A stretch of DNA of 64,000 bases. Source: Bacteroidales bacterium WCE2008. GTDB lineage: Bacteria; Bacteroidota; Bacteroidia; Bacteroidales; UBA932. Both the position numbers and the translations under genes were made by a program. Location of the stretch: the NCBI GenBank assembly GCA_900167925.1, contig FUZM01000002.1, positions 124,001 to 188,000 on the forward strand, given 5' to 3'. Within the stretch, counting starts at the first letter, position 1; every line of letters begins with the position of its first letter. The notes under the pieces were generated by a model that saw only the letters and a list, made by a program, of their open reading frames with translations, was not told where the DNA came from and did no database searches. Positions 9,001 to 61,817 of the stretch are shown in pieces.

Positions 9001-9863
9001 TAGACTTCGACGGAAAGAATCTTGTTTTCGTATTCAATCCGGCCATCCAGCGTAACAGCGGGGCGACTGAAAGGGACAGGCTTCTCCTGCTGGAGAGCCG
9101 GCCTGAGATGTACTGGCTTCTTTCGGACATTCTTTCTTCAGATTATGAAGTCGTATATGCGTCGGAGCCGGCAGCTGCACTCAAGTCGCTGAAACATTCG
9201 GATGCCAACCTGATAGTCGTCGATGCTCATCTTGGAATCAGTGACGAAAATGCATTCAGAGATACTCTGTCCAAGAACAGGACAACGATTTCAGATATCC
9301 CGTTCGTCGTGATTCTTGGAAATGACAAGCCGAGCCATAATCTTGGTTCAGAGCTTGTCTCATGGTCCGACAGCTATGTATTCGTCCCTGAAGGAATGCA
9401 TCTTGTCAAGGACGTGATCTCTCGCGCAGTCGACGGAAAGAAGGATTTCCGGCGCATCAAGATGGAAGAGCTCGGCAGTCTGGCCGATGACATAGTATGC
9501 ACGAATGAAGAGGATATGGCCTTTGTCCGCAAGACAATCCAGGTGCTTTCCGAGAATATCGCCCGCGAGGATCTCGGAACGGCCCTTATCGCCGACAGGA
9601 TGGCCATGACTCCGCGCTCGTTCTACAGACGTTTCCGCAGCATCTCGCATATAACTCCGGGAACATTGATCAAGATTTATCGTCTGGAGATGGCGTCGCG
9701 TCTGCTTCTGGATGACTCGAAACAGATCCAGGATGTGATCGCGGAGGTGGGAATCTCGAGCCGTTCATATTTTTACAAGGAGTTCACCGCCCGCTTCGGA
9801 ATGACTCCGGGAAACTGGAAAAGTTCCCATGGGCTGAGTGCTGAACCGATGTCTTCTAAATGA
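6093..9863 (+). CDS. Hybrid two-component-like PUL sensor/regulator with degenerate kinase and receiver
   Basis: A 1256-residue membrane sensor-regulator placed directly before the SusCD locus. Order: signal peptide (about 1-24), two-component-regulator beta-propeller repeats (about 30-690, for example WMGTYDGL, WLGTDRGL), a Y_Y_Y domain (about 690-780), one membrane helix (about 787-808), a kinase-like region (about 815-985), a receiver-like region (about 998-1113, Asp1044) and an AraC-type double helix-turn-helix (about 1143-1250). Odd: the dimerisation segment lacks the HELRTP-type phospho-histidine box; the ATPase-like region has no recognisable N or G boxes; the receiver has lost the Lys (VFVPEG instead of a KP motif) and the conserved Thr. 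It probably signals by conformation, not phosphotransfer. Likely target: the susC promoter 185 bases downstream. A terminator separates the two. Confidence 0.88.
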   Translation: MNKTLYPLLLAVLNIFISVFSADAADNGGEYVFRRVGYSDGLSHSAVLSIFQDNTDLVWMGTYDGLDCYDGSSMHVYRSDFSSGGSLTNNIIYSICQADGDNLWVNTFQSLNRLSKGSGEITKAFSFKGEAYISSNSKGNTWLVCRDSLYYFNTVKDDFILVDDSFIHGEDPEHRFFVNEDGEMMYFGRDDGKVRIYSVSSWKSAPSSVTIKYKEENFHPKPISDIFYQTGMMCFVDQDKDLYMYDTARNTKVYIRNISALIEEYGSIGGIVPFYEDFLIGFNANGLFRLKAFSKYEAEPVDRNLRIFCLYHDLRQGVIWIGSDGQGALMYEKKYSIADNIILSSISNNLSRPVRAILTDSRGGMWVGTKGDGIVYFPDYKKGTAGGEVITPSGRRSVIGYSRESTEFKVYAIKESRFRDGVWIGAGKEGLLFCPYGGIPVKIAFPAGVYAPDEVHDIYEKDKNTLYISCAGMGIHKLTLSGNKVINDLNYSFYFEGREIGLFYAMKAVGDSLLYAGSRGDGIVRLDMRTNEYSVISMRYLYNEAIDDILSLCPASDGSLYVGTVSGMLRLYNSGDDVRAEFIGKKNGLINDMIHGILEDNDGMLWLGTDRGLVKYNPSNGLAQTYLFTAGLEFGEFSDDAYYKDPRTGKLYLGGNRGLISLAPHTPEMVQYYSNIQLRSLEVAHEEVRFSDYTDGDGNLVLKGSPVSFAVTFAVPDYRASGLVEYSAFLEGYDKEWSVYTLDNKVSYTDVPAGTYTLRLRYKKDVYDTLPEEFSIKVRIRRGFFRSSLFMILVGLAFLGLLGYSVFSYRNNRRKIQEARDSDKAMADFRKRLSIAYADTYDNASVERSTLREISDSVTSLLAARGAQTEGISFIGPEVPFPVYTNYMKRLLLVIYDHILSSGGSADLSCEIEDKSLHMVVSAEKKLLEPLYRAVSGGSAHNLSSRFCEDSTTQLDFLCIAAQQGIPERIDFDGKNLVFVFNPAIQRNSGATERDRLLLLESRPEMYWLLSDILSSDYEVVYASEPAAALKSLKHSDANLIVVDAHLGISDENAFRDTLSKNRTTISDIPFVVILGNDKPSHNLGSELVSWSDSYVFVPEGMHLVKDVISRAVDGKKDFRRIKMEELGSLADDIVCTNEEDMAFVRKTIQVLSENIAREDLGTALIADRMAMTPRSFYRRFRSISHITPGTLIKIYRLEMASRLLLDDSKQIQDVIAEVGISSRSYFYKEFTARFGMTPGNWKSSHGLSAEPMSSK

Positions 9864-9920: not shown

Positions 9921-9950
9921 AGGGTGTCCTCTTTACGGACACCCTTTTTA
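9921..9950 (+). terminator. Intrinsic terminator after the PUL regulator
   Basis: GGGTGTCC (9922-9929) pairs with GGACACCC (9937-9944) around a short loop, followed by a T-rich tract to about 9954. It isolates the regulator transcript from the susC transcript. Confidence 0.85.
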
Positions 9951-10047: not shown

Positions 10048-13000
10048 ATGGAATTATCTAAAATTAAACTTCTTGCCGGTAAGATCTGGCTGGCAGTTGT
10101 GATTTTCATCACCACCGGGATAATGATGTCTGCACAGACAAGGAATGTCTCCGGTCGTGTATCTGATGACAAGGGTGAAATGCTTGCAGGAATTGCGGTG
10201 TACGAGAAAGGTACCACAAACGGTACCCTTACCGATGACAACGGTCAGTACTCCCTTACTCTTAAGAGCACTAACCCTATTCTTGTATTCTCAGCCCTTG
10301 GTTTCGAGGAGCAGGAGATCGAAGTCGGCAAACAGACCCTTATCGACGTTGCCCTCGTTACCGTAGTAAGTGAACTCGACGAGAGCGTTGTCGTAGGTTA
10401 TGGTACCCAGAGAAAGATCTCCGTTGTCGGATCTCAGTCATCCCTCAAGTCAGACCAGATAAAGATGCCTTCGGCAAGTCTTTCATCTGTTGTCGCCGGA
10501 CGACTCGCAGGCGTTGTCTCTGTCCAGAGGACAGGAGAGCCTGGTCATGATGAGACCGACATCTGGATCCGTGGTATTTCGACCTTTACGAATCAGCCTT
10601 CCCGACCTCTCGTGCTTGTCGATGGTGTTGAGCGTAGCTTCAACAATATCGACCCTGAGGATATCGAGAGCTTCACTGTCCTCAAAGATGCATCTGCAAC
10701 TGCTGTCTATGGTGTACGTGGCGCCAACGGTGTCATCATCATCAAGACTAAGCCGGGTAGGGTAGGCAAGCCTAAGTTCACTGTCGATTATTACGAGAGT
10801 ATCACCAGACTCACCAGAATCCCTAAGCTTGCGAACGCATACGAGTATATGGATGCGGCAAACGAGGCTTACCTGAACAGCCGTGGTGCGCTTCTCTTCA
10901 CTCCTCAGTATATCGAGGCTACCAAGAAGGCTGACGGAATCATCCCTAACGATGATCCTAAGGCCTATAACAGCTATCTGTATCCTAATGTCAACTGGAT
11001 CGACGAGCTCTTCAGACCATTGGGACATAACCGCCGTGCGCAGATCAGCGTAAGAGGTGGCGTGCCTAACGCTACATATTATGTGTCTCTCACATATTAT
11101 AATGAGACAGGTCTTACACGTAACGCCAAGATGGAGAACTACAACGCCAACATGCGTTATGACAGGTATAACTATACTGCCAACCTGAATCTCCGTCCTA
11201 CAGAGACTACTACCATCGATCTTGGATTCAGCGGATATCTCTCCGAGGGCAACTATCCTCAGCAGAGTACCTCCAGCCTCTTCGGGGCATGCTTCCAGAT
11301 CAACCCTGTATATCTTCCTAAGGAGATGCCTGACGGCTCCATCCCTGGAATCTCATCCATGGGTGACCTCCGTAACCCTCTCGCAGACCTTACAAAGAGA
11401 GGCTACAGGAACGAGATCAACAACCAGCTCAATTCCAATATCAGAATCGCCCAGGATCTCGGATTCTTCGACTGGAGCAAAGGTCTTTCCGCCAACGCCC
11501 TCCTCGCTTTCGACGTAAACAACTGGCGTCAGAACAAATACGAGAAACGTGACGATACCTACTACTTCTCAGGATCGAAGAACACTGAGACAGGTCTCTG
11601 GAACAATGATGTATTCACCGATGACGAGTGGGCTATCACCCGTACATATACCGGTAGCCGCGAGCTTGGCTATGGCAGGGACCAGACCATGGACCGCAAC
11701 GTCTATTTCGAGGCCTCCCTCAATTATGACAGGACCTTCGGCAAGCACGGAGTCACCGGACTTCTTCTCTACAACCAGAATGTCTATGCCGCAGGTCACC
11801 CTGACAGCCTTATCGAGTCGCTCAACTACAAGCAGCAGGGCCTTGCCGCAAGAGCGACATATGCTTACGACGACCGTTATTTCGCAGAAGTCAATGCCGG
11901 TTACAACGGTTCCGAGAACTTCGACCCTAAGCGCAGGTTCGGTTTCTTCCCGGCAGCCGGTCTCGGATGGGCTGTTTCAAATGAACCGTTCTGGAAACCT
12001 CTCAAGGACGTATGGTCATTCTTCAAGATCCGCTATACCATCGGTCAGGTAGGATCCGACTCCGCAGCAGGACGCCGTTTCATGTATCAGGACGAGATGG
12101 GCAGCGCAGACGGTACCCGTTTCGGTACTTCAAACAGCCCTAAAGACGGTTGGGGATACAAGAAATATGGTTCTAACGTGGGCTGGTCAACATCCCTCAA
12201 GCAGAACCTCGGTTTCGACTTCAAGTTCTTCAAGGACGAACTCTCGCTCACAGTAGAGCTCTTCAAGGAGCACCGTACCGGAATCTTCCTCCAGCGTGCT
12301 ACTATTCCTGACTACTGCGGTTTCATCGAGATGCCTTATGCCAACCTCGGTATCGTGGACAACAAGGGTATCGACATGAACATCGAATACAACAAGCAGC
12401 TTGCTACCAAGACCTTCCTTACCCTCAGGGGCAACCTCACCTGGAACGAGGACCGCATCATCGAGGATGATCAGCCGGAACCTGCATATCCATGGCTCGA
12501 GACCCGCGGAACCAACGTCCTTGCACGCTGGGGATGGATCGCTGAAGGCCTCTTCACAAGCGATGACGAGATCATCGACCATGCAAGACAGTTCGGCGAG
12601 GAATATCCTGGACAGATCTCACGTCCTGGTGATATCAAGTATAAGGATCTCAACGGTGACGGCGTAGTCGATGATTATGACAAGTGCGTAATCGGCCAGG
12701 GCGACGTTCCGAAGCTTTATTACGGCTTTGGCGCAGACCTCCAGGTAGGCCAGTTCTCATTCGGCGTGATCTTCTCCGGAAATGCCTTCGCTGACCGCTG
12801 TCTCTCCGGTGACGGTATCCATCCGTTCTCTGACCAGGCCGGTCTTTCCAACCTGTTCAGCAACATTACCGACAGATGGTCTGCAGAAAACCCTGAGAAC
12901 ACCAACGTATTCTACCCACGTCTCCACTACGGAAAGACAGACAACCTCAATAACACCAAGGAAAGCACCTGGTGGCAGAAGGACGTAAGTTTCCTCCGCC

Positions 13001-13203
13001 TGAAGCAGGCAACCATCACATACGATCTTCCTGGAAGACTTGTCGACAAGACCTTCCTCGATGCCGCAAGTGTATACATCACAGGAACCAACCTTCTGAC
13101 CTTCTCTAAATTCAAGATCTGGGATCCTGAGCTCAACACCAACAACGGATGTTCATATCCTAACGCGATGACGATCTCAGTAGGTCTCAATGTCAAATTC
13201 TAA
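10048..13203 (+). CDS. SusC/RagA-type TonB-dependent outer-membrane transporter
   Basis: A 1051-residue outer-membrane importer. A signal segment (about 1-32) is followed by a carboxypeptidase-regulatory-like domain (about 34-105, NVSGRVSDDKGEMLAGIAV), a TonB-box-like region (SVVVGYGTQ), a plug with DIWIRGIST and PLVLVDGVER, the AVYGVRGANGVI motif that ends the plug, and then a long beta-barrel to a terminal aromatic-rich strand ending in Phe. Length and order are normal for SusC. It works with the SusD lipoprotein that starts 15 bases downstream as a lidded importer for oligosaccharide or glycopeptide. Proline is coded almost only by CCT here, which fits high expression. Substrate is inferred from the enzymes downstream (mannosyl glycans). 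Confidence 0.96.
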   Translation: MELSKIKLLAGKIWLAVVIFITTGIMMSAQTRNVSGRVSDDKGEMLAGIAVYEKGTTNGTLTDDNGQYSLTLKSTNPILVFSALGFEEQEIEVGKQTLIDVALVTVVSELDESVVVGYGTQRKISVVGSQSSLKSDQIKMPSASLSSVVAGRLAGVVSVQRTGEPGHDETDIWIRGISTFTNQPSRPLVLVDGVERSFNNIDPEDIESFTVLKDASATAVYGVRGANGVIIIKTKPGRVGKPKFTVDYYESITRLTRIPKLANAYEYMDAANEAYLNSRGALLFTPQYIEATKKADGIIPNDDPKAYNSYLYPNVNWIDELFRPLGHNRRAQISVRGGVPNATYYVSLTYYNETGLTRNAKMENYNANMRYDRYNYTANLNLRPTETTTIDLGFSGYLSEGNYPQQSTSSLFGACFQINPVYLPKEMPDGSIPGISSMGDLRNPLADLTKRGYRNEINNQLNSNIRIAQDLGFFDWSKGLSANALLAFDVNNWRQNKYEKRDDTYYFSGSKNTETGLWNNDVFTDDEWAITRTYTGSRELGYGRDQTMDRNVYFEASLNYDRTFGKHGVTGLLLYNQNVYAAGHPDSLIESLNYKQQGLAARATYAYDDRYFAEVNAGYNGSENFDPKRRFGFFPAAGLGWAVSNEPFWKPLKDVWSFFKIRYTIGQVGSDSAAGRRFMYQDEMGSADGTRFGTSNSPKDGWGYKKYGSNVGWSTSLKQNLGFDFKFFKDELSLTVELFKEHRTGIFLQRATIPDYCGFIEMPYANLGIVDNKGIDMNIEYNKQLATKTFLTLRGNLTWNEDRIIEDDQPEPAYPWLETRGTNVLARWGWIAEGLFTSDDEIIDHARQFGEEYPGQISRPGDIKYKDLNGDGVVDDYDKCVIGQGDVPKLYYGFGADLQVGQFSFGVIFSGNAFADRCLSGDGIHPFSDQAGLSNLFSNITDRWSAENPENTNVFYPRLHYGKTDNLNNTKESTWWQKDVSFLRLKQATITYDLPGRLVDKTFLDAASVYITGTNLLTFSKFKIWDPELNTNNGCSYPNAMTISVGLNVKF

Positions 13204-13217
13204 AACCGGATGTCATT

Positions 13218-15185
13218 ATGAAAACATTATATAAAATTGCAGCTGCGGTCATGATCATGGCGTCTGTTTCGTCCTGCAACGACTTTTTCCCGACGATTCC
13301 GGGTACGCAGTACAATCTGGAAGACACCTTCTCAGACCGTAACAAGACAGAGGAGTTCCTCAACAACGTCTATAGTTATGTTCCTGACGAGACCTGCGAA
13401 CGCTGGCCTACCTATTATGCCGGCGGTATCTGGACCGGCGGATCAATTGAAGGCGATATCACCTGGAGCGGTGATGGCGAAGAAGCTACCAGCTGGTCTC
13501 TCGGCTCGGTATACGCTTCTACCAACTGGATCGGATACTGGTATAATGAATACTACAAGGGTATTGCAAAGGCCAGCACATTCATCAGCAATGTAGATAA
13601 ATGCGTCGAAGCCAGCGCTTCAGACCGTAAGTACTGGAAGGCCCAGGCAAGAGCTCTCCGTGCCTACTATTACTTCAACATCTTCCGTTGCTACGGTCCT
13701 GTGACTATCATCGGTGAAGAAGCCATGGCTCTCGATACTCCTCTTGATGACCTTCTCAAGGAAAGGAATACAGTCGACGAGAATATCGATTTCATCGTGT
13801 CCGAGCTTGACAAGGCTGCCGAGGATCTTCCTGCAAAGTACGGCGATGCCAACCTCGGCCGTATAGACAGGGGTACCTGCAAGGCTCTCAAGGCTAAAGC
13901 CCTTCTTTATGCCGCCAGCCCTCTTTTCAACTGCAACCCTGACTATGCGGAGATCAGGAATCTTGACGGTACCCAGATCTTCCCTCAGGACAAGAGCCAG
14001 GAGCAGGCAAAGTGGGAAAGGGCAAGAGATGCATATAAGGAATTCCTCGACGAGTTCGACGGTAAGGTCTACTCACTCCAGATCGTGAGGACTCCTGCAG
14101 GAAATATCGACCATTATGAGTCATATCGTCAGGCAGCGTCTATCTCTGATTATACCCGCAACACAGAGCAGATATTCATCAGGCTTTCCGACCACGACCT
14201 TATCCAGTACCAGCTCACCCCTTACCACAGGGATTGCCAGGACGAAAGCATCCGCGGCGGTCTCGGTTTCGGAACCACCCAGGAGATGGTCGACATGTAC
14301 TTTACAGACAAGGGCCTCCGTATCTGCGAAGATCCTGACTATGACGAGTACACAGGTGTTCCTGATCCTTCCCACTATGGCTGGGACGAGGACTACAATG
14401 ATCCGTTCAACCCTGAGAGAAACCTCTTCAAGGCTAATACCGACAAGACCCTCAAGCAGTGGGCACACCGTGAGCCTCGCTTCTATGTATGCGTGACCTT
14501 CAACGGTTCTACATGGCTCAATACCAATACCAACGACGGCGAGGTGACCACCGAGCTTACAGTAAACGGTAACTCCGGCTTCAACGCAGCCAACTGGGAT
14601 GCTCCTTATACCGGTTACGGCGAACGTAGGATGGCTCCTATGAATGGTGACGAGCAGGGCGCTCACTGCGCAGTTCTTCTCCGACTCGGCGACATGTATC
14701 TCGGATATGCAGAATGCCTCAGCGCCTGCGGTCAGTATGACGAGGCTATGAAGTATGTCAACCTCATCCGTGCGAGAGCAGGTGTGCCTGGATATGGCAA
14801 TGGCGGTGGTACGGATGCCAACGGCATGACCTATATCTCTTACCCTGTCAACCGTGATGAAGTCGACAAGCGAATTCGTCGCGAGAGACTCGTGGAGCTT
14901 TCATTCGAGTGGAATCACTTCTTCGATGTACGTCGCTGGAAAGTGGCTGACATGGCTGTCGGTGATGACTGGATCTATCCTTCTTACCACAGAGGTGGCG
15001 AAGGCGGTCCTATCCACGCCATGGATTTCATGGCCGATGCGCCTGATTTCTTCAAGAAAGTCGAGTTCGAGACCAGAGTCTGCTCAAAACAGCACTTCCT
15101 TATGCCGATTCCGGATGCAGAAATGAGAAGGAATCCTAAGATGGTGCAGAATTACGGCTGGACTTCTGAAGCAACTGAAAGATAA
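13218..15185 (+). CDS. SusD/RagB-family surface glycan-binding lipoprotein
   Basis: A 655-residue lipoprotein. The signal peptide ends in VSSC with the lipidated Cys at residue 20, followed by NDFFP. Helical TPR-like segments follow (KASTFISNVDKC, ARALRAYYYFNIFRCYGPV, characteristic of SusD around residues 115-160), and the C-terminal part has RRERLVELSFEWNHFFDVRRW near residue 555, a conserved SusD signature. It is longer than average, with an expanded middle that probably forms the binding face. It lies 15 bases after susC and shares its CCT/CTC-biased codon use, so the two are coexpressed. Role: lid and ligand capture for the SusC pore. Confidence 0.95.
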   Translation: MKTLYKIAAAVMIMASVSSCNDFFPTIPGTQYNLEDTFSDRNKTEEFLNNVYSYVPDETCERWPTYYAGGIWTGGSIEGDITWSGDGEEATSWSLGSVYASTNWIGYWYNEYYKGIAKASTFISNVDKCVEASASDRKYWKAQARALRAYYYFNIFRCYGPVTIIGEEAMALDTPLDDLLKERNTVDENIDFIVSELDKAAEDLPAKYGDANLGRIDRGTCKALKAKALLYAASPLFNCNPDYAEIRNLDGTQIFPQDKSQEQAKWERARDAYKEFLDEFDGKVYSLQIVRTPAGNIDHYESYRQAASISDYTRNTEQIFIRLSDHDLIQYQLTPYHRDCQDESIRGGLGFGTTQEMVDMYFTDKGLRICEDPDYDEYTGVPDPSHYGWDEDYNDPFNPERNLFKANTDKTLKQWAHREPRFYVCVTFNGSTWLNTNTNDGEVTTELTVNGNSGFNAANWDAPYTGYGERRMAPMNGDEQGAHCAVLLRLGDMYLGYAECLSACGQYDEAMKYVNLIRARAGVPGYGNGGGTDANGMTYISYPVNRDEVDKRIRRERLVELSFEWNHFFDVRRWKVADMAVGDDWIYPSYHRGGEGGPIHAMDFMADAPDFFKKVEFETRVCSKQHFLMPIPDAEMRRNPKMVQNYGWTSEATER

Positions 15186-15204
15186 TTTAAAGCTAACACA
15201 AATC

Positions 15205-17514
15205 ATGAGGAATATATTGGTATCAGCTTCTCTGGCAATGGCAGGATTCCTGGTTTCCGCACAACCATCTCGTTTCGTCGATCCGTTCATCGGAACCGAC
15301 GGAATGGGGCATACATTCCCTGGGGCATGCGTGCCTTTCGGAGGTATCCAGTTGAGTCCTGATACCGATATCGTTCCCCATAACATCGCTGGCAAATACC
15401 AGCAGAGAACCTATGACTATTGCGCCGGATACAGACATTCCGACAGCACTATCGTAGGCTTCTCCCACAGGCATCTCAGTGGAACAGGTCATTCAGACCT
15501 CGGGGATATACTGATCATGCCTACTACCGGTCCCGTACAGCTGACTCCGGGAACGGCAGATCACCCTGAAGACGGATACAGATCCCGTTTTTCGCATGAT
15601 ACCGAAGTCGCAAGACCAGGTCTCTATGAGGTTACTCTCGCGGATTACGGGATCAGGGCCCGCCTTTCAGCAACAAAAAGGGTCGGCGTACACGAATACA
15701 CTTATCCATCCTACCAAAAACAGAATATTATTCTGGACCTGACACACAGCATTTACGGATACGACGGCAAAGTTTGCCGTGCAACCTTGAGAGTCGAGAA
15801 TGACACTCTGGTTACCGGCTTCCGTCTCACAGACGGATGGGCCCGTACCAACTACACTTATTTTGCAATTTCATTCTCCAAGCCGATCCGTGATTATGGT
15901 TACGAGGACAAGAAACCTTCTGCCTACAGCGGATTCTGGAGACGTTTCGACATTGGCCATAATTTCCCCGATATGGCCGGCCGGGACGTAGCGGCATGGT
16001 TCTCTTTCGACGAAGGAGAACCGCTCACGGTAAAAGTAGCGATTTCGGCAGTCGACGCTGCAGGCGCAATCCGGAATCTCGAGGCTGAAGCTGCAGGCTC
16101 ATTCGACGAGATCGCCTCCATGGCGGCTCAGGAATGGGACAAGGCTCTCGGCAGATTCGAGGTTGAAGGCACCGACAGCGAAAAGACGATGTTCTATACC
16201 TCCGTGTACCATACCCTGATCAATCCGTCAGTCTATATGGACGTGGACGGCAAGTACAGGGGAGTGGACGGAAACATCCATCAGGCCGAAGGATTCACCA
16301 ACTACACAGTATTTTCACTCTGGGATACCTACAGGGCCGAGCATCCTTTCCTGGGTCTTCTATGGCCCGAGGAGAACTCGGATATGATAAAGTCAATGGT
16401 CGAGCACTGGAAGCAGAATGCCGTCGGCATGCTCCCGGTCTGGAGCCTCATGGGCAACGAAAACTGGTGCATGAGCGGTTATCATGCCGTCCCGGTACTC
16501 GCCGACGCCATCGTCAAAGGAACATATAAAGGCTCGGCCGAAGAGGCTCTCGCGGCCATGACCGCGACCTCGAAGGTCAGGATCTACGAAGGTCTCGGCT
16601 TTTATATGGACCATGGATTCGTGCCGCTCGATGAAAGCGGGACTGCGGCTTCGACGACTCTGGAATACAGCTATGACGACTGGACTATCCATGCCGCCGC
16701 GCTGAAAGCCGGAGCTTCGGAGATAGCCGATGAATACGGTCGCAGGGCCATGAACTATGCCAATGTATATGATCCTTCGATCGGTTATGCGCGTCCGAGA
16801 TATTCCGACGGTTCTTTCAAGAAAGATTTCGACATCGACCAGACTTACGGGGAAGGTTTCATCGAAGGAAATTCGCGTAATTTCTCTTTCCATGTTCCCC
16901 AGGACGTCAAAGGTGTCATGGAGTTGATGGGCGGCGAGAAGGCTTTCCTTGGAAAACTTGAGAATCTGTTTGCGATGGACCTTGACCCGAAATATTACGA
17001 GGATAACGAGGATATCGAAAAAGAATGCCTGGTCGGCGGATATGTGCATGGCAACGAACCGAGCCACCATGTGCCGTATCTTTTTGCCTGGACTTCCAAG
17101 CCATGGCTTACCCAATACTGGGTTCGCGAAATAATGAACCGGATGTATAGAGAGGGAATTGACGGTCTCGGCGGCAATGATGATTGCGGCCAGATGAGCG
17201 CCTGGTATCTGTTCTCGGCTATGGGATTCTATCCTGTATGCCCCGGAACGGACCAGTATGTGCTCGGCGCCCCTTATCTTCCTTACATCAGAATAACCCT
17301 TCCTGGTGGCAAGAAGCTGGAAATCAAAGCAGACGGTGTAAGCGACCGTAACCGGTATGTAAAACGCGTGAAAATCAATGGAAAACCTCTTGACAGAAGA
17401 TATGTCACCCATGAGGAAATCCTTGACGGAGGAGTATGGGAGTTCGAAATGGCTTCCAGGCCTTCCGGAGCAAAAGGGCTGAAAAAGCCTTATTCAATGT
17501 CAGATAACAATTAA
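15205..17514 (+). CDS. GH92 family alpha-mannosidase (first copy)
   Basis: A 769-residue secreted enzyme with a signal peptide (about 1-19, cleavage after SAQ). The family's N-terminal motif FVDPFIGTDGMGHTFPGACV (from residue 24) is followed by the catalytic (alpha/alpha)6 part. Glu618 in HGNEPSHHVPYLF and Asp659/Asp660 in GNDDCGQMSAWY match the acid and base regions of GH92. Family knowledge: calcium-dependent, inverting exo-mannosidases that remove alpha-1,2/1,3/1,4/1,6-mannose from N-glycans or fungal mannan. Linkage preference cannot be read from sequence here. It lies 19 bases after susD and is probably periplasmic. Confidence 0.95.
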   Translation: MRNILVSASLAMAGFLVSAQPSRFVDPFIGTDGMGHTFPGACVPFGGIQLSPDTDIVPHNIAGKYQQRTYDYCAGYRHSDSTIVGFSHRHLSGTGHSDLGDILIMPTTGPVQLTPGTADHPEDGYRSRFSHDTEVARPGLYEVTLADYGIRARLSATKRVGVHEYTYPSYQKQNIILDLTHSIYGYDGKVCRATLRVENDTLVTGFRLTDGWARTNYTYFAISFSKPIRDYGYEDKKPSAYSGFWRRFDIGHNFPDMAGRDVAAWFSFDEGEPLTVKVAISAVDAAGAIRNLEAEAAGSFDEIASMAAQEWDKALGRFEVEGTDSEKTMFYTSVYHTLINPSVYMDVDGKYRGVDGNIHQAEGFTNYTVFSLWDTYRAEHPFLGLLWPEENSDMIKSMVEHWKQNAVGMLPVWSLMGNENWCMSGYHAVPVLADAIVKGTYKGSAEEALAAMTATSKVRIYEGLGFYMDHGFVPLDESGTAASTTLEYSYDDWTIHAAALKAGASEIADEYGRRAMNYANVYDPSIGYARPRYSDGSFKKDFDIDQTYGEGFIEGNSRNFSFHVPQDVKGVMELMGGEKAFLGKLENLFAMDLDPKYYEDNEDIEKECLVGGYVHGNEPSHHVPYLFAWTSKPWLTQYWVREIMNRMYREGIDGLGGNDDCGQMSAWYLFSAMGFYPVCPGTDQYVLGAPYLPYIRITLPGGKKLEIKADGVSDRNRYVKRVKINGKPLDRRYVTHEEILDGGVWEFEMASRPSGAKGLKKPYSMSDNN

Positions 17515-17522
17515 AAACAGAT

Positions 17523-18305
17523 ATGAAGAATTATATAATTCTTACGCTGTGTCTCGCCACAGCAGCAACAGTTGCCTGCCGGCAGAATAACTCAACAGAA
17601 AAGACTGCTGACTGGTCCGGCTACAATCTGGGAAAGATCGTCTTCGAGGATAAAGCCAAGGAGACTGAAGGATCGAAGATATACGCCAGCATAATCAAGG
17701 ACCCTGAGACTTATATCAGAGAGCAGGCCAAAGATGTGCTTGCAACGCTTTATTATTCTCCTCAGGACAGCATCCCATATGTCGAGAACCTCTACTATAC
17801 CCTTGAAGATGTAGATGGAATATCCGCCAAGGGTGACGAGGGTAATGATGCCTTCGTTTTCTACAGCACAAGGCATATCGAGCATAGTTTTGCTGATGCC
17901 GATACCGCCAAGGTCCTCTTCGAGACCCGCGGTGTCCTGCTCCACGAACTCACCCATGTATATCAGCTTTCGCCTCAGGGAATCGGAAACTATGATGACA
18001 ACCGTGTATTCTGGTGCTTCACCGAGGGAATGGCTGATGCCGTACGTGTCGCAAATGGAGGTTTTACCCCTGACGACAGACCGAGAGGCGGCAGCTATAT
18101 GGACGGCTACCGTATTACCGGATTCTTCCTAGTATGGCTCAGGGACAACAAGGATCCTGATTTTCTCAGGAAATTCAATGCCAGCACGCTTGAGGTGATT
18201 CCATGGTCATTCAATGGAGCCATCAAGCATATCCTTGGAGAAAATGCCGATATCGATGATCTCTGGCATGAGTATCAGGTCGCTGTCGGGGACATCAAAC
18301 TCTAA
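17523..18305 (+). CDS. Basic secretory protein (BSP)-family zinc metallopeptidase lipoprotein
   Basis: A 260-residue predicted peptidase. The signal peptide ends at TVAC, giving a lipidated Cys19. The zinc site is HELTH at residues 141-145 (H141, E142, H145), followed after a short loop by FWCFTEGMADAVR, the downstream helix that supplies the third ligand region in the BSP family. The C-terminal part, with RITGFFLVWLRDNKDPDFL and WSFNGAIKHILG, is typical of bacterial BSP proteins, which Pfam describes as peptidases of plants and bacteria. It sits 8 bases after the first GH92 gene and 4 bases before the second. Inferred role: cutting the protein part of a mannosylated glycoprotein. Confidence 0.85.
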   Translation: MKNYIILTLCLATAATVACRQNNSTEKTADWSGYNLGKIVFEDKAKETEGSKIYASIIKDPETYIREQAKDVLATLYYSPQDSIPYVENLYYTLEDVDGISAKGDEGNDAFVFYSTRHIEHSFADADTAKVLFETRGVLLHELTHVYQLSPQGIGNYDDNRVFWCFTEGMADAVRVANGGFTPDDRPRGGSYMDGYRITGFFLVWLRDNKDPDFLRKFNASTLEVIPWSFNGAIKHILGENADIDDLWHEYQVAVGDIKL

Positions 18306-18309
18306 TGCA

Positions 18310-20568
18310 ATGAGAACATACAGACTGACAATGGCAGTATTAGGGCTTCTGGCCGGCATCGCTCCGATGACGGCTCAGAAGCTTACTGATTATGTAAAGC
18401 CACTTGTTGGAACAGATGGATACGGGAATGTCTATCCAGGTGCCCAGATTCCGTTCGGAGGTATCCAGATCAGCCCTGATACCGATGACAATTTCTATGA
18501 TGCGGCTTCCGGATACAAGTATTCCCACAATACGATCCAGGGATTCAGCCTTACCCATCTTAGCGGCACAGGCATCCCTGATCTCGGAGATTTCCTGTTC
18601 ATCCCCGGTACTGGGGAGCTGAGACCAGCCTCTGCCTACAGCCATGACAAGGAAGTTGCTACACCGGATTATTACAGCGTCGTGTTGGATGATTATGGTG
18701 TAAAGGCAGAGATGACCTCGGGCCTGCGAAGCGGAATATTCCGTTTTACATTTCCGGAGTCCGACTCGGCCTTCATCGCCGTCGATATGGACCATACGCT
18801 TTACCAGAAATGTGTCTGGTCAAGTCTTCGCGTGGAGAACGACTCGACGATAACCGGATATAAGCTGGTTGACGGATGGGGACCGGAAAGGCATGTATAT
18901 TTCGCGGCCACATTCTCCTGCGGCCTGAAGGGAATGCTGTTCTATGAGGACGGAAAGCCCGTAATCTATGATACGATGCGCTTCCGCAGCACCGGTGAAG
19001 CCTGGGGCAGGAAACTGTCCGCCAGAATCGGTCTGAAGACCACGGAAGGCGAGCAGGTGACAGTACGTGTAGCGGTTTCCGGCGTAAGCCTGGAAGGTGC
19101 CCTGAAGAATCTCGCAGAGACTGAAGGGGAGACCTTCGACAGCCTTCATGAAAAAGGACTGGCTCTCTGGGAAGACGAACTCTCCAGATATGAGCTCAAG
19201 GCTGACCGCAAGACAATGGAGACCTTCTATACTTCTGCATACCATGCGGCGCTCCATCCATTCGTTTTCGAGGATGCTGACGGCAGGTACAGGGGACTCG
19301 ACAAGAATATCGCCACATCTGACGGGTTTACGAACTATACTGTATTCTCGCTTTGGGATACCTACAGGGCCTTCCATCCATGGATGAACCTGGTGCATCA
19401 GGACATCAACGCGGATATCGCGACTTCCATGCTTGCGCATTATGACAAGAGTGTCGAGAAGATGCTTCCGATATGGTCTTTCTATGCCAACGAAACCTGG
19501 TGCATGATCGGTTATCATGCGGTTTCGGTACTTGCAGACATGATTGTCAAAGATGTCAAGGGATTCGACAGGGAAAAGGCATACGAAGCCATGAAGACCA
19601 CGGCGATGAACCGTAATTATGACAAGCTTGAGGAATACCGCAATCTCGGCTATGTGCCTTTTGATACAGAATCCGAGTCGGTCTCCAAGACTCTTGAATA
19701 TGCTTATGATGACTTCTGTATAGCTCAGGCAGCGAAAGCTCTTGGGCATCAGGAGGATTACGAGTACTATCTGCAAAGGTCCCTGTCATACAGGAATCTT
19801 ATCGATCCTGAGACCGGATTCATGAGAGGAAGGGATTCGAAAGGGGAGTGGAGAACTCCATTCTCACCTCTCGATTACCAGGGACCTGGCTCAGTCAACG
19901 GCTGGGGCGACATTACGGAAGGGTTTACCGTACAGTATACCTGGTATGTCCCTCACGATATGCAGGGTTATATGGACATCGCCGGGGAGAAGAAGCTTCT
20001 TTCCCGACTTGACAGCCTGTTTACTTACGAGCTTCCTGAGGACATTCCGGGCGCTCATGATATCCAGGGCAGGATCGGTGCATACTGGCACGGCAATGAG
20101 CCATGTCACCATGTCCCTTATATCTACAATTATTTCAGGCAGCCGTGGAAGTGCCAGAAGAGGATCCGCGAGATAGCCGACAGATTCTATGGAAATACTC
20201 CTGACGCTCTCAGCGGCAACGATGATTGCGGCCAGATGAGCGCCTGGTATATGTTCAATTGTCTCGGAATCTATCCCGTCGCTCCATCGAGCAATGTCTA
20301 TAATATCGGTTCTCCATGCGTCGAAGCCCTTACCGTCACGATGACCGGCGGCAAGAAAATACGAATGACTGCGAAGAACTGGTCTCCTGAAAATGTTTAT
20401 GTAAAACAGCTGAAGGTCAACGGCAAGATCTGCGACAAGTCCTGGATTACCTGGGATGACATCAAGGATGGCGCCGAACTGGAGTTCGTAATGAGCCGCA
20501 AGCCGGCATACCGCCGCGCCGTTTCAGCCCAGGCAGTTCCGCCTTCTGTCTCAACCCTTGAAAACTGA
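18310..20568 (+). CDS. GH92 family alpha-mannosidase (second copy)
   Basis: A 752-residue secreted enzyme. The frame is open from 18214, but the ATG at 18310 gives a proper signal peptide (about 1-20, ending TAQ) and starts four bases after the BSP stop, so it is preferred. The family opening motif DYVKPLVGTDGYGNVYPGAQ is followed by the (alpha/alpha)6 catalytic domain with Glu597 in HGNEPCHHVPYIY and Asp638/Asp639 in GNDDCGQMSAWY. It is clearly related to the first GH92 but diverged along the whole length, so it is not a recent duplication; the two probably act on different linkages or in sequence. An internal segment (about 515-540) has no counterpart in the first copy. Confidence 0.95.
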   Translation: MRTYRLTMAVLGLLAGIAPMTAQKLTDYVKPLVGTDGYGNVYPGAQIPFGGIQISPDTDDNFYDAASGYKYSHNTIQGFSLTHLSGTGIPDLGDFLFIPGTGELRPASAYSHDKEVATPDYYSVVLDDYGVKAEMTSGLRSGIFRFTFPESDSAFIAVDMDHTLYQKCVWSSLRVENDSTITGYKLVDGWGPERHVYFAATFSCGLKGMLFYEDGKPVIYDTMRFRSTGEAWGRKLSARIGLKTTEGEQVTVRVAVSGVSLEGALKNLAETEGETFDSLHEKGLALWEDELSRYELKADRKTMETFYTSAYHAALHPFVFEDADGRYRGLDKNIATSDGFTNYTVFSLWDTYRAFHPWMNLVHQDINADIATSMLAHYDKSVEKMLPIWSFYANETWCMIGYHAVSVLADMIVKDVKGFDREKAYEAMKTTAMNRNYDKLEEYRNLGYVPFDTESESVSKTLEYAYDDFCIAQAAKALGHQEDYEYYLQRSLSYRNLIDPETGFMRGRDSKGEWRTPFSPLDYQGPGSVNGWGDITEGFTVQYTWYVPHDMQGYMDIAGEKKLLSRLDSLFTYELPEDIPGAHDIQGRIGAYWHGNEPCHHVPYIYNYFRQPWKCQKRIREIADRFYGNTPDALSGNDDCGQMSAWYMFNCLGIYPVAPSSNVYNIGSPCVEALTVTMTGGKKIRMTAKNWSPENVYVKQLKVNGKICDKSWITWDDIKDGAELEFVMSRKPAYRRAVSAQAVPPSVSTLEN

Positions 20569-20586
20569 TGAATTATTGATTTGAAT

Positions 20587-22053
20587 ATGAAATACTCTTA
20601 CTTAATACCGGCAGTCCTCGTTTCTGCCATGTTTATGTTCTCTTCCTGCGAAAAGGATTCGAAGGACCCGGACACACCTACAGTCTATACTTATGCTTCA
20701 GTAGCCTCTGAAAACGAGAATATCCCTTGCGGCGGAGTCATCTCTACCCAGTATTCCGATTCTCCTTACGGATCAGACATTAGCAAGGTAGTGGATAATG
20801 ATCCGGCGACCTCGTTCGTCACTTTCCACAAAGAGTTCTTCATTCTCTGGAGCGGCAAGAGGTCATTCGCCCTCAAGTCTTATTCCATCATGTCTTCCGC
20901 CGGCGACGGTACAGTCCCTGAATCATGGGTCCTTTCCGGCTCCAATGACAACAAGGCCTGGGTCCAGATCGACAAGAAGAGCGGACAGGTCTTCGGCGGC
21001 GCGAACACCCGCAAGGAATACAGGACTCTGTCTACAACCTCATATAAGTATTATAGATTCGTATTCACGACTACTTCTGCCAACACTGCAATCGCCGAGA
21101 TTGTGCTGGCTGACGGAGGTGTCGCCAATATCGACGACCTGATGTATCTTTCCCATGGCAGCACCCTGAGTTCCCAGACGCCGATGGGCGAGTTCTGCGA
21201 GAATCGCCACAAGACGACCGAAGAAGACATCGCATGGCTTGCCGATCCGAAAAACGAGCCTTCAGTCATCGGCGGAGACGGGTCTCTTGAATGGCAGGAT
21301 TATGATGTCACTCTTTTCCCGTTCGGCAGTCCTGTGCCGGCTGATGTCAACCAGCAGGCAATCGGAGACTGCTGCGCCCTTGCCGTATTCGGTTCTATGG
21401 CATACGTTTTCCCTGATTTCATAAAGGATATCATAAAGAACAACGGCGACGGCACATTTACAGTCAAGACATACGATCCTCAGGGAAAAAGTGTAGACGT
21501 AACTGTTTCTTCAAGGTTCCTGAACGGTGGAGTTACCGGCAAGAATGACGTCAGGACATGGTCAGCGGTTCTTGAGAAAGTTGTGATGAAATGGAATTCT
21601 GTCTACCACACCGTCGGCTCTATCGAAGGTATTCCTACCGAGTACACTTCTCCTATCTTCACCGGAAACGGGGAGAGTTTCGCCTTTGATTATGGCGTCC
21701 TCGATTACGCCCAGATGGAAAGAGTGGTTACAGTCATGCTCAATAAAGGCTGGATAGTAGTCGGAGGTTTCCACGTGTCTGACCAGATTATCGGAGACGG
21801 TCCGTTCAAGACTGTTACCGCTCATGCCTTCTCTTTCATTCTCGATGACCACACTTCTGCCAAATATGGAGCCAGAAACCCATGGGGATACTCGAACGGA
21901 ACTACGGATTATCCGGATCCATACGATGGAGTAGCTCCTATCGTCGATGACGGAAGGACTCAGCCGCTTATCGATCTTAGAATCTGCAACCCTGGATCCG
22001 CCCTTGACTTCAAGCAGAAATATCTGCTCCCTTATACACCACCATCATTTTAA
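20587..22053 (+). CDS. Lipoprotein with discoidin-like domain and calpain-like (C2) cysteine peptidase domain, copy 1
   Basis: A 488-residue lipoprotein (signal ending FSSC). Residues about 40-185 read as an F5/8-type-C/discoidin sandwich, with the VVDNDPATSF, ESWVLSGSNDNKAWVQID and YYRFVF patterns of that fold. Residues about 245-470 read as a calpain-like peptidase: PADVNQQAIGDCCALAV with the expected nucleophile Cys262, His413 in TAHAFSF and Asn431 in ARNPWG. The usual Trp after the nucleophile is Cys here. It begins 18 bases after the second GH92; a TTG at 20581 is a possible alternative start. Inferred role: a surface or periplasmic peptidase carrying a carbohydrate- or surface-binding module. 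The next gene is its paralogue. Confidence 0.75.
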   Translation: MKYSYLIPAVLVSAMFMFSSCEKDSKDPDTPTVYTYASVASENENIPCGGVISTQYSDSPYGSDISKVVDNDPATSFVTFHKEFFILWSGKRSFALKSYSIMSSAGDGTVPESWVLSGSNDNKAWVQIDKKSGQVFGGANTRKEYRTLSTTSYKYYRFVFTTTSANTAIAEIVLADGGVANIDDLMYLSHGSTLSSQTPMGEFCENRHKTTEEDIAWLADPKNEPSVIGGDGSLEWQDYDVTLFPFGSPVPADVNQQAIGDCCALAVFGSMAYVFPDFIKDIIKNNGDGTFTVKTYDPQGKSVDVTVSSRFLNGGVTGKNDVRTWSAVLEKVVMKWNSVYHTVGSIEGIPTEYTSPIFTGNGESFAFDYGVLDYAQMERVVTVMLNKGWIVVGGFHVSDQIIGDGPFKTVTAHAFSFILDDHTSAKYGARNPWGYSNGTTDYPDPYDGVAPIVDDGRTQPLIDLRICNPGSALDFKQKYLLPYTPPSF

Positions 22054-22095
22054 GACCAACCATTTAATAACACTATAATAATCAATCTTTAATCT

Positions 22096-23607
22096 ATGAA
22101 ACGGTCTTATCTTTATCCGGTTGCCGTCATTTCGGCAATAATGCTGGTCTCATCCTGCTCGAAGGATGATTCTGAAACTCTGGAATCTGTTGAATATCCG
22201 GAGGAAGTCTATACGAAATCAGGGCCTTCCGCCTCAATCCCGGATGGTAACTCAAACATGCCATGCGGCGGTACTATCTCAACTAATCATAGCGAATACA
22301 ATGGCCATACAATCGGGAAACTGGTTGACAACAGCAGGTCGTCATATTTCGCTACGAAAAACTACACGTATAATGTAATCTGGAGCAGCGATGAGGCATT
22401 CTCGCTCAAATCCTACATTATCTATTCTTCCGATTCCGATCTCAAGGTTCCTGAGAACTGGGTTCTCTCCGCTTCTGCCGATAATGTAAGCTGGGTCGAG
22501 ATTGACTCCCGTTCCGGAGTGAACTATACCGGACGCAAGGAAAGGAAAGAGTTCTATATCGACGACGATTACAACCATAACTTTTACCGGTACTATAAGT
22601 TCGAATTCCAGTCGTCCAACAGAAAAACTGCCATTGCCGAGCTCAAATTGAGAGAGATGGCCATGGCGCCTTCTGGAGAGGAGAACATCGACGACCTCAT
22701 GGGGCTCATCAGGGACAATACCTACAGCAGCGAGACTCCTATGGGACAGTTCTGCGAGGGACGTCACAGGACAACAAATTCGGACAGGAACTGGCTCGCC
22801 AATCCGTCCAAAGAACCTACCACAGTCATCGAGAACGGAGACAGCAGATGGCGTACCAAGAATGTCACCCTTTATCCTTTCGGGACTCCGCTTCCGGCTG
22901 ATGTCAACCAGGGTGGAATAGGGGACTGCAGCGCCCTTGCCGTCTTTGCTTCCTTGGCTTACCTTTATCCTAATTTCATTGAAGATATCATCACCAACAA
23001 CGGAAACGGCTCTTATACAGTCAAGATGTACGATCCTGAAGGACAGGAAGTTGATGTGACCGTTTCTTCTAAATTCCTGAACAGTTGCGCCAAAGGCAAG
23101 AATGAGGTCATCTGCTGGACTTCGGTTCTCGAAAAAGCTATCATGAAATGGAACAGCATATACCATTGCAATGACATGCTCGACGGAATTGCTACCGAGC
23201 ATACTTCTCCGCTCTTTGTCGGCAACGGTGAAAGCTTTGCTTTCGATTCAGGTGTCCTTAACTATAATGAGATGGACAGGGCGGTGAGAGTCCTTCTCAA
23301 CAGGGGCTGGCTTGTCATCGGCGGCTTCAGCGAGGAAGACGTAGTAATCGGCAACGGACCGTACAGGACTGTCAGCGCCCATGCATTCACTTTCGTTTTC
23401 GATTCCGGCACTTCTGCGTCTTACGGAATGAGAAATCCGTGGGGACGTTCCCATGGAGTCGATGAGCCGGATCCACGCGACGGAGTCGCTCCGATAGTGA
23501 ATGACGGCAGGACTCAGCCTCTTATCGATATCAGGACCTGCAATCCGGGAGCTGCCTTAGCTTATAAGCAGTCTTATCTGCTTCCATATACGCCACCGGT
23601 GTGGTGA
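22096..23607 (+). CDS. Lipoprotein with discoidin-like domain and calpain-like (C2) cysteine peptidase domain, copy 2
   Basis: A 503-residue paralogue of the preceding gene. The signal peptide ends VSSC. The discoidin-like domain (about 60-205) has KLVDNSRSSYF, ENWVLSASADNVSWVEID and YYKFEF. The calpain-like domain carries Cys278 in GGIGDCSALAV, His429 in SAHAFTF and Asn447 in MRNPWG. The distances Cys-His (151) and His-Asn (18) are identical to copy 1. The residue after the nucleophile is Ser. The copies share the C-terminal LLPYTPP ending. Clear sequence divergence shows an old duplication under selection. An AT-rich 42-base gap separates the two. Confidence 0.75.
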   Translation: MKRSYLYPVAVISAIMLVSSCSKDDSETLESVEYPEEVYTKSGPSASIPDGNSNMPCGGTISTNHSEYNGHTIGKLVDNSRSSYFATKNYTYNVIWSSDEAFSLKSYIIYSSDSDLKVPENWVLSASADNVSWVEIDSRSGVNYTGRKERKEFYIDDDYNHNFYRYYKFEFQSSNRKTAIAELKLREMAMAPSGEENIDDLMGLIRDNTYSSETPMGQFCEGRHRTTNSDRNWLANPSKEPTTVIENGDSRWRTKNVTLYPFGTPLPADVNQGGIGDCSALAVFASLAYLYPNFIEDIITNNGNGSYTVKMYDPEGQEVDVTVSSKFLNSCAKGKNEVICWTSVLEKAIMKWNSIYHCNDMLDGIATEHTSPLFVGNGESFAFDSGVLNYNEMDRAVRVLLNRGWLVIGGFSEEDVVIGNGPYRTVSAHAFTFVFDSGTSASYGMRNPWGRSHGVDEPDPRDGVAPIVNDGRTQPLIDIRTCNPGAALAYKQSYLLPYTPPVW

Positions 23608-23635
23608 TAATTATTTAACACATTAATAATCAGTT

Positions 23636-24904
23636 ATGAAATGCTACATTAAAATCGCCTTGACGGCGGTATTCTGCCTGACATTAGGTGGATGTGGCCT
23701 GACAAATCCTTACGAGAAATGGCTTGACGAATGTCAGGAGAATCCAGACCGGATCCGTCCTTCTGAAGTGAAGTCAGTTCTCTGCACAGTCGGGACCTGG
23801 AAAACCGATTACGAAGGAACAGATGTCTACTTCCAGTTCAGCAGGGACGGTTCTGTAAGCTCTGATTCAGAGATTCAGAAACTTGCCACGCATTCGACAT
23901 TCAATGTAATGTCCGTTTCTTCCAAGGTCGTTTCTCTTACGATCATAGGAGGAGGGCACCTTGCTTATGTCGACAGTAATGCCGAAGAGACTTACTTCGT
24001 TGATGAATACTCCGAAACATCAATTACTGTCAAAGGAAAAGAGAGCGGTGAGACTCTTGTGCTCGTTCCTGCTCCGTCAGAGGATTTCGAGGCAATCAAT
24101 GCATCAAAGGAGGCCCTTCTTGCGACCATGGCTGCAGCCAACATGTTTGCTGAGGCAGGTTACGGTACTTCGTCGGTCAGCGACGAGAACGGGTTCGTCT
24201 GCAGGTTTGCCATTTCCCCGGAAAAGTGTTCCATCCGGTTCGATATCATTGAGGATGGCAAACTGTCCCATCAGACTATTTCCATTTCGGTGGATGAGGC
24301 CGGAAATCTCCAGCTCGGTTCACCTCTCACGATCGGCGAAAACACCATTACCGGGCTTGAGCTCAAAGGCGCTAATGTGAAGATGGAAGGAGCTGAAGAG
24401 CTTAAAGTAGCACGTAATAATGTATCGAGGGCGTATTTCCTCAGCGGAGATTACAAAACCCATAAAATCAATTACATTGATGGCGTAGGTGATGGCGTCA
24501 AATATGTCGTTGATGAATTCATGCCTCATGACGAGTGGGAATTTATCGAATTCAACGAACGCGAGACAAGGCCTCTTGTCTTCTGTCCCCGTGAAGGACA
24601 TGAAAAGGATCATTATTGGTATGTTTTTTACGACAGTTTCAACGAAGATAACGGTCCTGTAGTTTCGAGCGAATTCAACGATATCATCTTCATGCAGAAA
24701 GCAGACGGATATATGCCATTTGATGACTGGGGGGTCGATATCTCCGATGAAGTCGAGAAAGACTTCCCTAAGTTCTTTAAGGGATATTTCGACAAAGACG
24801 GTCTTATCCTTGTATATCTGCCGGAAGGCGAAGAGTCATACCTCTGGCTTCTGAGTCCTACGACAGACTTCTGGATAAAATCTTATCATATAGACGAAGA
24901 CTAG
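23636..24904 (+). CDS. PUL-terminal lipoprotein of unknown function (DUF4302-like at best)
   Basis: A 422-residue lipoprotein: signal peptide with GGC giving Cys20, then NPYEKWLDECQ. The first 130 residues (YFQFSRDGSVSSDSEI, then a VSLTIIGGGHLAYVD strand, then ITVKGKESGETLVL) resemble the N-terminal pattern of Bacteroidota DUF4302-type lipoproteins, although typical members differ in detail. The remainder is beta-rich and acidic with no enzyme motif I recognise. It is the last gene of the locus, 28 bases after the second calpain-like gene and just before a strong terminator. By position it may be a surface glycan- or peptide-binding protein, the SusE/SusF slot. This is inference. Confidence 0.6.
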   Translation: MKCYIKIALTAVFCLTLGGCGLTNPYEKWLDECQENPDRIRPSEVKSVLCTVGTWKTDYEGTDVYFQFSRDGSVSSDSEIQKLATHSTFNVMSVSSKVVSLTIIGGGHLAYVDSNAEETYFVDEYSETSITVKGKESGETLVLVPAPSEDFEAINASKEALLATMAAANMFAEAGYGTSSVSDENGFVCRFAISPEKCSIRFDIIEDGKLSHQTISISVDEAGNLQLGSPLTIGENTITGLELKGANVKMEGAEELKVARNNVSRAYFLSGDYKTHKINYIDGVGDGVKYVVDEFMPHDEWEFIEFNERETRPLVFCPREGHEKDHYWYVFYDSFNEDNGPVVSSEFNDIIFMQKADGYMPFDDWGVDISDEVEKDFPKFFKGYFDKDGLILVYLPEGEESYLWLLSPTTDFWIKSYHIDED

Positions 24905-24934
24905 GAATAGTCGTCATTCATGTTGTGTTTATCG

Positions 24935-24963
24935 CGGACCGGATTATTCCGGTCCGTTTTTTT
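24935..24963 (+). terminator. Terminator closing the SusCD locus
   Basis: A perfect 9-base stem, CGGACCGGA (24935-24943) with TCCGGTCCG (24948-24956), and a seven-T run. It ends the long plus-strand transcript and touches the stop codon of the convergent LytTR gene. Confidence 0.93.
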
Positions 24964-60770: not shown

Positions 60771-61817
60771 TTACTTCTTTACGTAGGCCGTAGCACGCCC
60801 GACACCGACCTTATCGATAAATCCACTAGCCACAAGTTCAGCCAGAGTGCGCTCAATGGTGGTAACACTGATATCCGGGCAGGCCTGGGCGATTTCCTTC
60901 TTTGAAATCTTCCCGGGCGTCTTCTCGATGAGGTCCTTGATGCGGTCGGCCTTGGACATTTTCCGGTGGCGCAGATGCTCAACGCGGTCCTCGAATTCAT
61001 TGTAAGCCTTGACCACCACGCCCAGCATGTATTTGAGGAAAGGAACGTAGTCGTTGCCGTTCTCATGCCAGTTCTGGGAGCTGGCCTGCAGAGCCTCGTA
61101 GTAGGAATCTTTACTCTTCTCGATGAGCATCTCGATACTGATGTACTTGCCCACGATGAATCCGGCGCGGTAAAGCAGAAGGAGTGTCAAGAGGCGGCTC
61201 ATACGGCCGTTCCCGTCGTTGAACGGGTGGATGCAGAGGAAGTCCAAGATGAACACCGGCATAAGAAGGAGCGGGTCGTAAGTTCCGGCTTCAATGGCCT
61301 CGTTGTATCTGGTGCAGAGGTTCAGTATGGCATCGGCCGTCTGGTAGGCCGGCACCGGGCGGAAGCGGACTGTTTCCGTGCCATCTGCGTGCTTCTCCGC
61401 GATGATATTGTCGGAATTCTTATACACGCCGCCAACAGCGCTGCTGCTGAAGGAATAGAGATCCCGGTGCAGCTGCAGGATGTTGTTGGGACGCGGCGCT
61501 ATATATTCATAGGATTCATGGATGGTGGCTAGGACATCGCGATAGCCGGAAATCTCTTCCTCGTTGCGGTTGCGAGGCTTGACTTTGTCCCGGACAATAG
61601 CATTCAGGCGCTCATCGGTAGTATAGATCCCCTCGATGCGGTTTGATGCACCGGTACTCTGGATTTTCGCCACCTCCAGCAAAGCTGTAAGCACATCAGC
61701 CTCAGCTTCAATAAAAAGTTCCTGCCTGCCACGGCATTCATGGAGGCGTGTCAGGATGCTGACGACTTCCGGAGTGAGGAGGTCTTTGGGGCGGTTTATG
61801 AAATCAAACTCATGCAT
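60771..61817 (-). CDS. Fic-domain AMP-transferase with winged-helix C-terminus
   Basis: A 348-residue protein. Fic motif HPFNDGNGR at 197-205 has the catalytic His197, Asp201, Asn203 and Arg205. An N-terminal inhibitory helix motif S58-xxx-E62-G63 (in STGASNRIEG) marks it as a class II, self-inhibited Fic enzyme. A winged-helix part lies at about 285-348 (ISKKEIAQACPDISVTTIERTLAELVASG in two helices). Family knowledge: Fic enzymes attach AMP to Ser/Thr/Tyr hydroxyls. The long helical Fic/DUF4172-like N-terminal region is typical of Bacteroidales members. Inverted repeat and -7 box lie just upstream, so autoregulation by the winged helix is plausible. Confidence 0.93.
   Translation of the reverse strand: MHEFDFINRPKDLLTPEVVSILTRLHECRGRQELFIEAEADVLTALLEVAKIQSTGASNRIEGIYTTDERLNAIVRDKVKPRNRNEEEISGYRDVLATIHESYEYIAPRPNNILQLHRDLYSFSSSAVGGVYKNSDNIIAEKHADGTETVRFRPVPAYQTADAILNLCTRYNEAIEAGTYDPLLLMPVFILDFLCIHPFNDGNGRMSRLLTLLLLYRAGFIVGKYISIEMLIEKSKDSYYEALQASSQNWHENGNDYVPFLKYMLGVVVKAYNEFEDRVEHLRHRKMSKADRIKDLIEKTPGKISKKEIAQACPDISVTTIERTLAELVASGFIDKVGVGRATAYVKK

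Follow-up and report, generated by a model that had tools for sequence, protein, structure and literature searches.

In Bacteroides thetaiotaomicron, the polysaccharide utilization loci (PULs) for high-mannose N-glycans and yeast mannan combine GH92 enzymes with SusCD and hold endo-acting glycosidases (GH18, GH76 or GH99). The mucin PUL BT4240–50 of the same organism comprises SusCD, a CBM32-bearing surface peptidase (the M60-like O-glycopeptidase BT4244) and glycosidases, and import of glycopeptides was proposed for it (PMC11992087). A further locus, BT3958–3965, which according to the literature encodes SusC (BT3958), SusD (BT3959), a calpain-like lipoprotein enriched in outer membrane vesicles (BT3960; PMC6222051), a DUF4302 protein (BT3961; PMC10434189) and the GH92 enzymes BT3962, BT3963 and BT3965, was published as a 'PUL of unknown function' that mannose glycans and human milk oligosaccharides (HMOs) up-regulate (PMC5930347), and was reported elsewhere to respond to the mucin core-1 disaccharide (PMC5238430). 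A counterpart of BT3958–3965 was found at positions 10048–24904 of a 64,000 nt stretch of Bacteroidales bacterium WCE2008, an organism of gut or rumen type (contig FUZM01000002.1, positions 124,001–188,000; the whole analysed stretch is referred to as the window). It is considered reasonably likely that this eight-gene locus serves the utilization of α-mannosylated protein, acting like the mucin PUL BT4240–50 with mannose-specific enzymes.

The gene family assignments are borne out by Pfam and NCBIfam profiles. On the plus strand, adjoining genes for a SusC-type TonB-dependent importer (10048–13203; TIGR04056, 978 bits, E = 7e-294) and a SusD-type surface lipoprotein (13218–15185; PF07980) are followed by GH92a, a predicted periplasmic exo-α-mannosidase (15205–17514; PF07971), BSP, a predicted zinc metallopeptidase lipoprotein (17523–18305; PF04450, 167 bits), GH92b (18310–20568; PF07971), the calpain-like lipoproteins Calp1 (20587–22053) and Calp2 (22096–23607), and the DUF4302-like lipoprotein LipoX (23636–24904). 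The GH92b reading frame opens at 18214, and the start at 18310 was chosen as the probable one, lying 4 nt past the BSP stop as in the L002 ortholog; the Calp1 start was corrected to the ATG at 20587. After these corrections the intergenic gaps measure, in order, 14, 19, 8, 4, 18, 42 and 28 nt, and since they span only 4–42 nt the eight genes are probably co-transcribed as one transcript. An intrinsic terminator (24934–24957, plus strand; 10-bp stem and T run) ends the locus. The gene positions and the head-to-tail arrangement closed by a terminator that were described in a first-pass annotation of this DNA were thereby confirmed.

The linkage of BSP and GH92 was surveyed across an even sample of 393 genomes of the order Bacteroidales, of which 16 encode BSP and 259 encode GH92. 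A GH92 gene lies within 3 kb of 15 of the 24 BSP sites, spread over 13 of the 16 BSP genomes, compared with 0.7 such sites expected under random placement (P about 4e-18, to be taken as a guide only, because 2 of the 24 BSPs are fragments and PUL genes are non-randomly placed). The most informative new fact is that in three assemblies GH92a and BSP are joined in one polypeptide of 1002–1021 residues (L004, 260–3325; L066, 9845–12874; L068, 740–3748). In a tree of BSP-neighbouring GH92s, all GH92a proteins that are adjacent to or fused with BSP form a single clade (support 100/99), in which the L004 fusion clusters with GH92a of the present locus, away from those of L066 and L068. Of the GH92a relatives in the 392 other genomes, the ten that score highest are without exception next to or fused with BSP, and more distant members of the clade occur with no adjacent BSP. 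That BSP and GH92 belong together is thus supported by three natural fusions and by recurrent adjacency, which also lends independent support to the earlier proposal that peptidase and mannosidase act on one substrate; the fusions in relatives suggest a dedicated machine for consuming mannose-coated proteins.

Among the BSP sites lacking a neighbouring GH92 are some beside GH38 and GH76 α-mannosidases, and one BSP pair that does have GH92 is also adjoined by GH125. At one site (L069, 10056–16117), BSP stands by a purple-acid-phosphatase-like protein, a GH76 and a BT_3044-like lipoprotein, with SusCD nearby; this region is a candidate phosphomannan or glycosylphosphatidylinositol (GPI)-glycan locus.

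A collection scan recovered nearly the same gene set on three named rumen/gut Bacteroidales contigs (L001–L003), so the set did not arise by chance. With this neighbourhood search, which had been suggested in the first-pass annotation, the locus is seen not to be unique: it recurs in rumen/gut Bacteroidales and has a published B. thetaiotaomicron counterpart. The order on L002 is SusCD-GH92a-BSP-GH92b-Calp1-Calp2-LipoX-GH92, and L001 and L003 read regulator-SusCD-BSP-Calp-LipoX-GH92, with GH92a and GH92b missing. The same-genus genome G368 carries GH92-GH92a-BSP-GH92b-Calp-LipoX-LipoX (L052), and at L053 a GH38 α-mannosidase is flanked by SusCD, BSP and a calpain, with no GH92. Judged by the genes reported for it, BT3958–3965 differs from the present locus in gene order, and the latter has two calpains and one GH92 fewer. 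Through the recurrent set, a PUL of a well-studied gut bacterium that is still listed as of unknown function becomes approachable by genetics and by evolutionary comparison.

BSP matches PF04450 and carries the motif HELTH at residues 141–145 (H141, E142, H145), followed by E168 and D172. The HExxH, Glu and Asp residues are kept in 22 of the 24 BSP domains and motif residues are lost in the other two, so that a peptidase role is a sound prediction from the catalytic residues. The structure model has a predicted local distance difference test score (pLDDT) of 56 and gave no significant fold match; its weak hits, led by gluzincins (M61, leukotriene A4 hydrolase), carry no weight in the argument, and a structure database search found no BSP relative among solved structures. 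In the literature searches, no assay of any bacterial BSP member and no paper treating BSP together with GH92 were found. The one biochemical hint that turned up concerns the plant BSP PRp27, for which labelling by a metalloprotease probe was shown to need the HExxH motif (PMC9322406). No acidic stretch resembling a surface-export signal follows the BSP lipobox, and five BSPs elsewhere bear a CBM32/F5-8C-like domain. Tied to α-mannosidases by adjacency and fusion, BSP is proposed as a candidate glycopeptidase family. More specifically, and only tentatively, BSP may be a mannose-dependent glycopeptidase that would read the mannose stub left by GH92a on Ser/Thr or Asn and cut the peptide there. 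If this holds, the GH92a-BSP fusions would be two-step trim-and-cut enzymes and a counterpart, for α-mannose, of the M60 O-glycopeptidases that mucin degraders use.

Calp1 and its paralog Calp2 (56% identical) share one domain layout, a CBM32/F5-8C-like domain followed by a calpain (C2)-like peptidase domain. Their respective PF00648 (Peptidase_C2) scores of 24.2 and 31.0 bits lie above the cut-off of 23.8; alignment to calpain-9 gave no better than E = 0.09. The Cys264/His415/Asn433 triad (Calp1 numbering) is kept in all 11 calpains, and with catalytic residues preserved in BSP, Calp1 and Calp2, the first-pass annotation's count of three predicted peptidases stands. In the Calp2 model, pLDDT lies below 50 over most of the catalytic domain and only the CBM32-like domain is confident. 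By sequence and by fold, the N-terminal domain best matches the CBM32 of a Neobacillus GH92 mannosidase (7nsn), which bound mannoimidazole in the crystal (PMC10167667). Behind the lipoboxes of both proteins lie stretches rich in Lys, Asp and Glu that resemble LES, the surface-export signal defined in PMC6222051. Full-length calpains occur in 5 of the 393 genomes, all five within the 16 that encode BSP (P = 6e-8).

Both GH92 proteins have plain signal peptides, with no lipobox in GH92a, and score 557 and 559 bits against PF07971; their N and catalytic domains lie above cut-off, with the general acid Glu and the base Asp in place. The host assembly (2.37 Mb, 99% complete) holds four GH92 genes in total. 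GH92b is orthologous to BT3965 (PDB 6f91, 1315 bits), which was described as an α-1,4-mannosidase (PMC5930347), although one recent table gives it as Man-α-1,2 (PMC12834350). As the residues proposed to form the +1 subsite of BT3965 are kept, GH92b probably acts on α-1,4-linked mannose. High-mannose N-glycans contain, to our knowledge, no α-1,4-mannose, the linkage of the BT3965 type, and mannosylated protein of the fungal or GPI type is therefore a more promising lead than N-glycoprotein. A high-mannose N-glycan, as had been considered at first, is therefore a doubtful target for this predicted enzyme set, and that part of the first-pass annotation was weakened.

Under the favoured reading, Calp1 and Calp2, as surface lipoproteins with a CBM32-like domain, would first cleave the glycoprotein on the surface of the cell, and the glycopeptides would be taken in through SusCD. 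Periplasmic GH92a and GH92b would then strip terminal α-mannose, GH92b probably the α-1,4-linked residues, and BSP, on the periplasmic side next to GH92a, would cleave the peptide around the sites so trimmed. Direct observations comprise the gene content, the conservation of catalytic residues, the types of signal, the recurrence of the set, and the adjacency and fusion of GH92a with BSP; from these we infer proteolytic activity, protein locations, the order of steps and the substrate. In comparison with BT4240–50, C2 and BSP are unrelated to its M60 peptidase, α-mannosidases take the place of GH2/GH109, and peptidase activity is proven there, whereas it is predicted from sequence here. If correct, the scheme would provide gut and rumen Bacteroidales with a route for eating mannosylated proteins without prior release of the glycan, and might also yield a new enzyme tool for the analysis of mannoproteins.

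Several points weigh against this scheme. We know of no proteolytic activity for a bacterial BSP or for these calpain-like proteins; the Peptidase_C2 matches barely exceed the cut-off, and the catalytic domains of Calp2 and BSP are both poorly modelled. The mannose contacts of 7nsn (Glu105, Phe122, Asp148, Arg152) are kept only in part in the calpain-like proteins, largely not, and therefore no sugar specificity is claimed for their CBM32-like domain. Random placement is a lenient null, BSP and GH92 both residing in PULs. Comparison of SusC and SusD with the Protein Data Bank revealed no special likeness to peptide importers and was uninformative for peptide versus glycan. The B. thetaiotaomicron locus is reported to be induced by the mucin core-1 sugar and HMOs besides mannose glycans. 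MEROPS does not place PRp27 among the metalloproteases, and the immune role of this plant protein is independent of HExxH (PMC9322406).

The locus might instead be an ordinary oligomannoside PUL, whose cargo is free glycan and whose peptidases clear cell-wall protein to expose the glycan or recycle peptide nitrogen. GH92 and SusCD would be enough alone for this purpose, and the reported up-regulation of the B. thetaiotaomicron counterpart by mannose glycans and HMOs would fit. Profile searches found no GH18, GH76 or GH99 in the locus, in agreement with the first-pass annotation, or among the scanned window proteins; in contrast to the B. thetaiotaomicron N-glycan and mannan PULs, peptidases are present in place of an endo-acting glycosidase. 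GH76 was not detected in a search of the host genome either, and the GH99 search matched in no control genome and thus does not establish the absence of GH99 from the host. Four GH18 genes are located on another contig of this genome, three of them near SusCD pairs, and could free the glycan; those at C1:410–428 kb are possibly endoglycosidases acting in trans. Because no proteolytic activity is known, the genome has GH18 genes and the GH99 search was uninformative, proteolysis as a substitute for an endoglycosidase, as proposed in the first-pass annotation, is no more than a possibility. A BSP fused to a periplasmic-type exo-mannosidase is hard to explain if BSP merely clears bulk protein, and no endo-mannanase is found in the locus, so that an oligomannoside PUL is regarded as unlikely, if still deserving serious consideration. 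The C1:410–428 kb region (L086, L087) itself comprises two SusCD pairs and three GH18 genes.

Loss of motif residues in 2 of the 24 BSP domains, the weak C2 similarity, and the dispensability of the HExxH motif for the immune function of plant PRp27 (PMC9322406) would all suit a reading in which BSP is some other kind of zinc hydrolase, or serves GH92a as a structural partner, and the calpain-like proteins have a binding function. The conservation of HExxH, Glu and Asp in nearly all BSPs and of Cys/His/Asn in every calpain argues for catalysis and disfavours this reading, which is judged quite improbable. Slightly more remote is the possibility that the locus is aimed at GPI-anchored protein or at GPI glycan; GH92b (α-1,4) and other GH92s would then trim the GPI core and the peptidases remove the attached protein. 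It draws on the retained +1-subsite residues of GH92b and on the pairing of GH76 with a metallophosphoesterase in one BSP locus; the locus itself contains neither a phosphodiesterase nor GH76, GPI remnants are sparse as food, and the Man-α-1,2 listing of BT3965 (PMC12834350) speaks against it.

The last gene of the proposed mannoprotein locus, LipoX, scores 21.2 bits against DUF4302 (cut-off 27) and is thus called DUF4302-like only. Among 149 sampled genomes, each of the 17 strong DUF4302 genes is situated no more than about 1 kb downstream of a gene for Peptidase_Mx1 (TIGR04549), a secreted putative zinc metallopeptidase. The 12 examined DUF4302 loci (L072–L083), one of them in the host genome itself (C1:670–674 kb), are SusC-SusD-Mx1-DUF4302 operons. 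They resemble the present locus in that, within a SusCD operon, the gene of the DUF4302 lipoprotein comes immediately after that of a secreted putative peptidase, and differ in having no α-mannosidase, LipoX being a divergent, sub-threshold relative. The arrangement suggests that DUF4302 is a peptidase-partner family, and because strong DUF4302 genes directly follow Peptidase_Mx1 genes, LipoX is probably a peptidase partner and not an additional enzyme. An inhibitor role was considered for LipoX and dropped, since DUF4302 proteins elsewhere mostly bear surface-export-like signals. The DUF4302-peptidase link, the CBM32-like domain of the calpains and the B. thetaiotaomicron counterpart had been missed in the first-pass annotation.

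Upstream of susC, separated from it by a terminator-like hairpin (9921–9945, plus strand), a probable regulator is encoded at 6093–9863 (plus strand), with a periplasmic propeller (Reg_prop), Y_Y_Y and an AraC-type HTH_18 domain; its orthologs precede their loci on L001 (952–3897) and L003 (131–3040). Profile searches recognized no HisKA, HATPase or receiver domain in the regulator or in these two orthologs, so that, despite its propeller, Y_Y_Y and AraC domains, it is not classed as a hybrid two-component regulator and is apparently, judging by its domains, a sensor wired to DNA binding without phosphotransfer. Complete hybrid two-component sets (kinase and receiver) are present in the regulators of the BSP loci L065, L061 and L053. 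Elsewhere in the window, a stand-alone Fic-domain protein of 348 residues is encoded at 60771–61817 on the minus strand.
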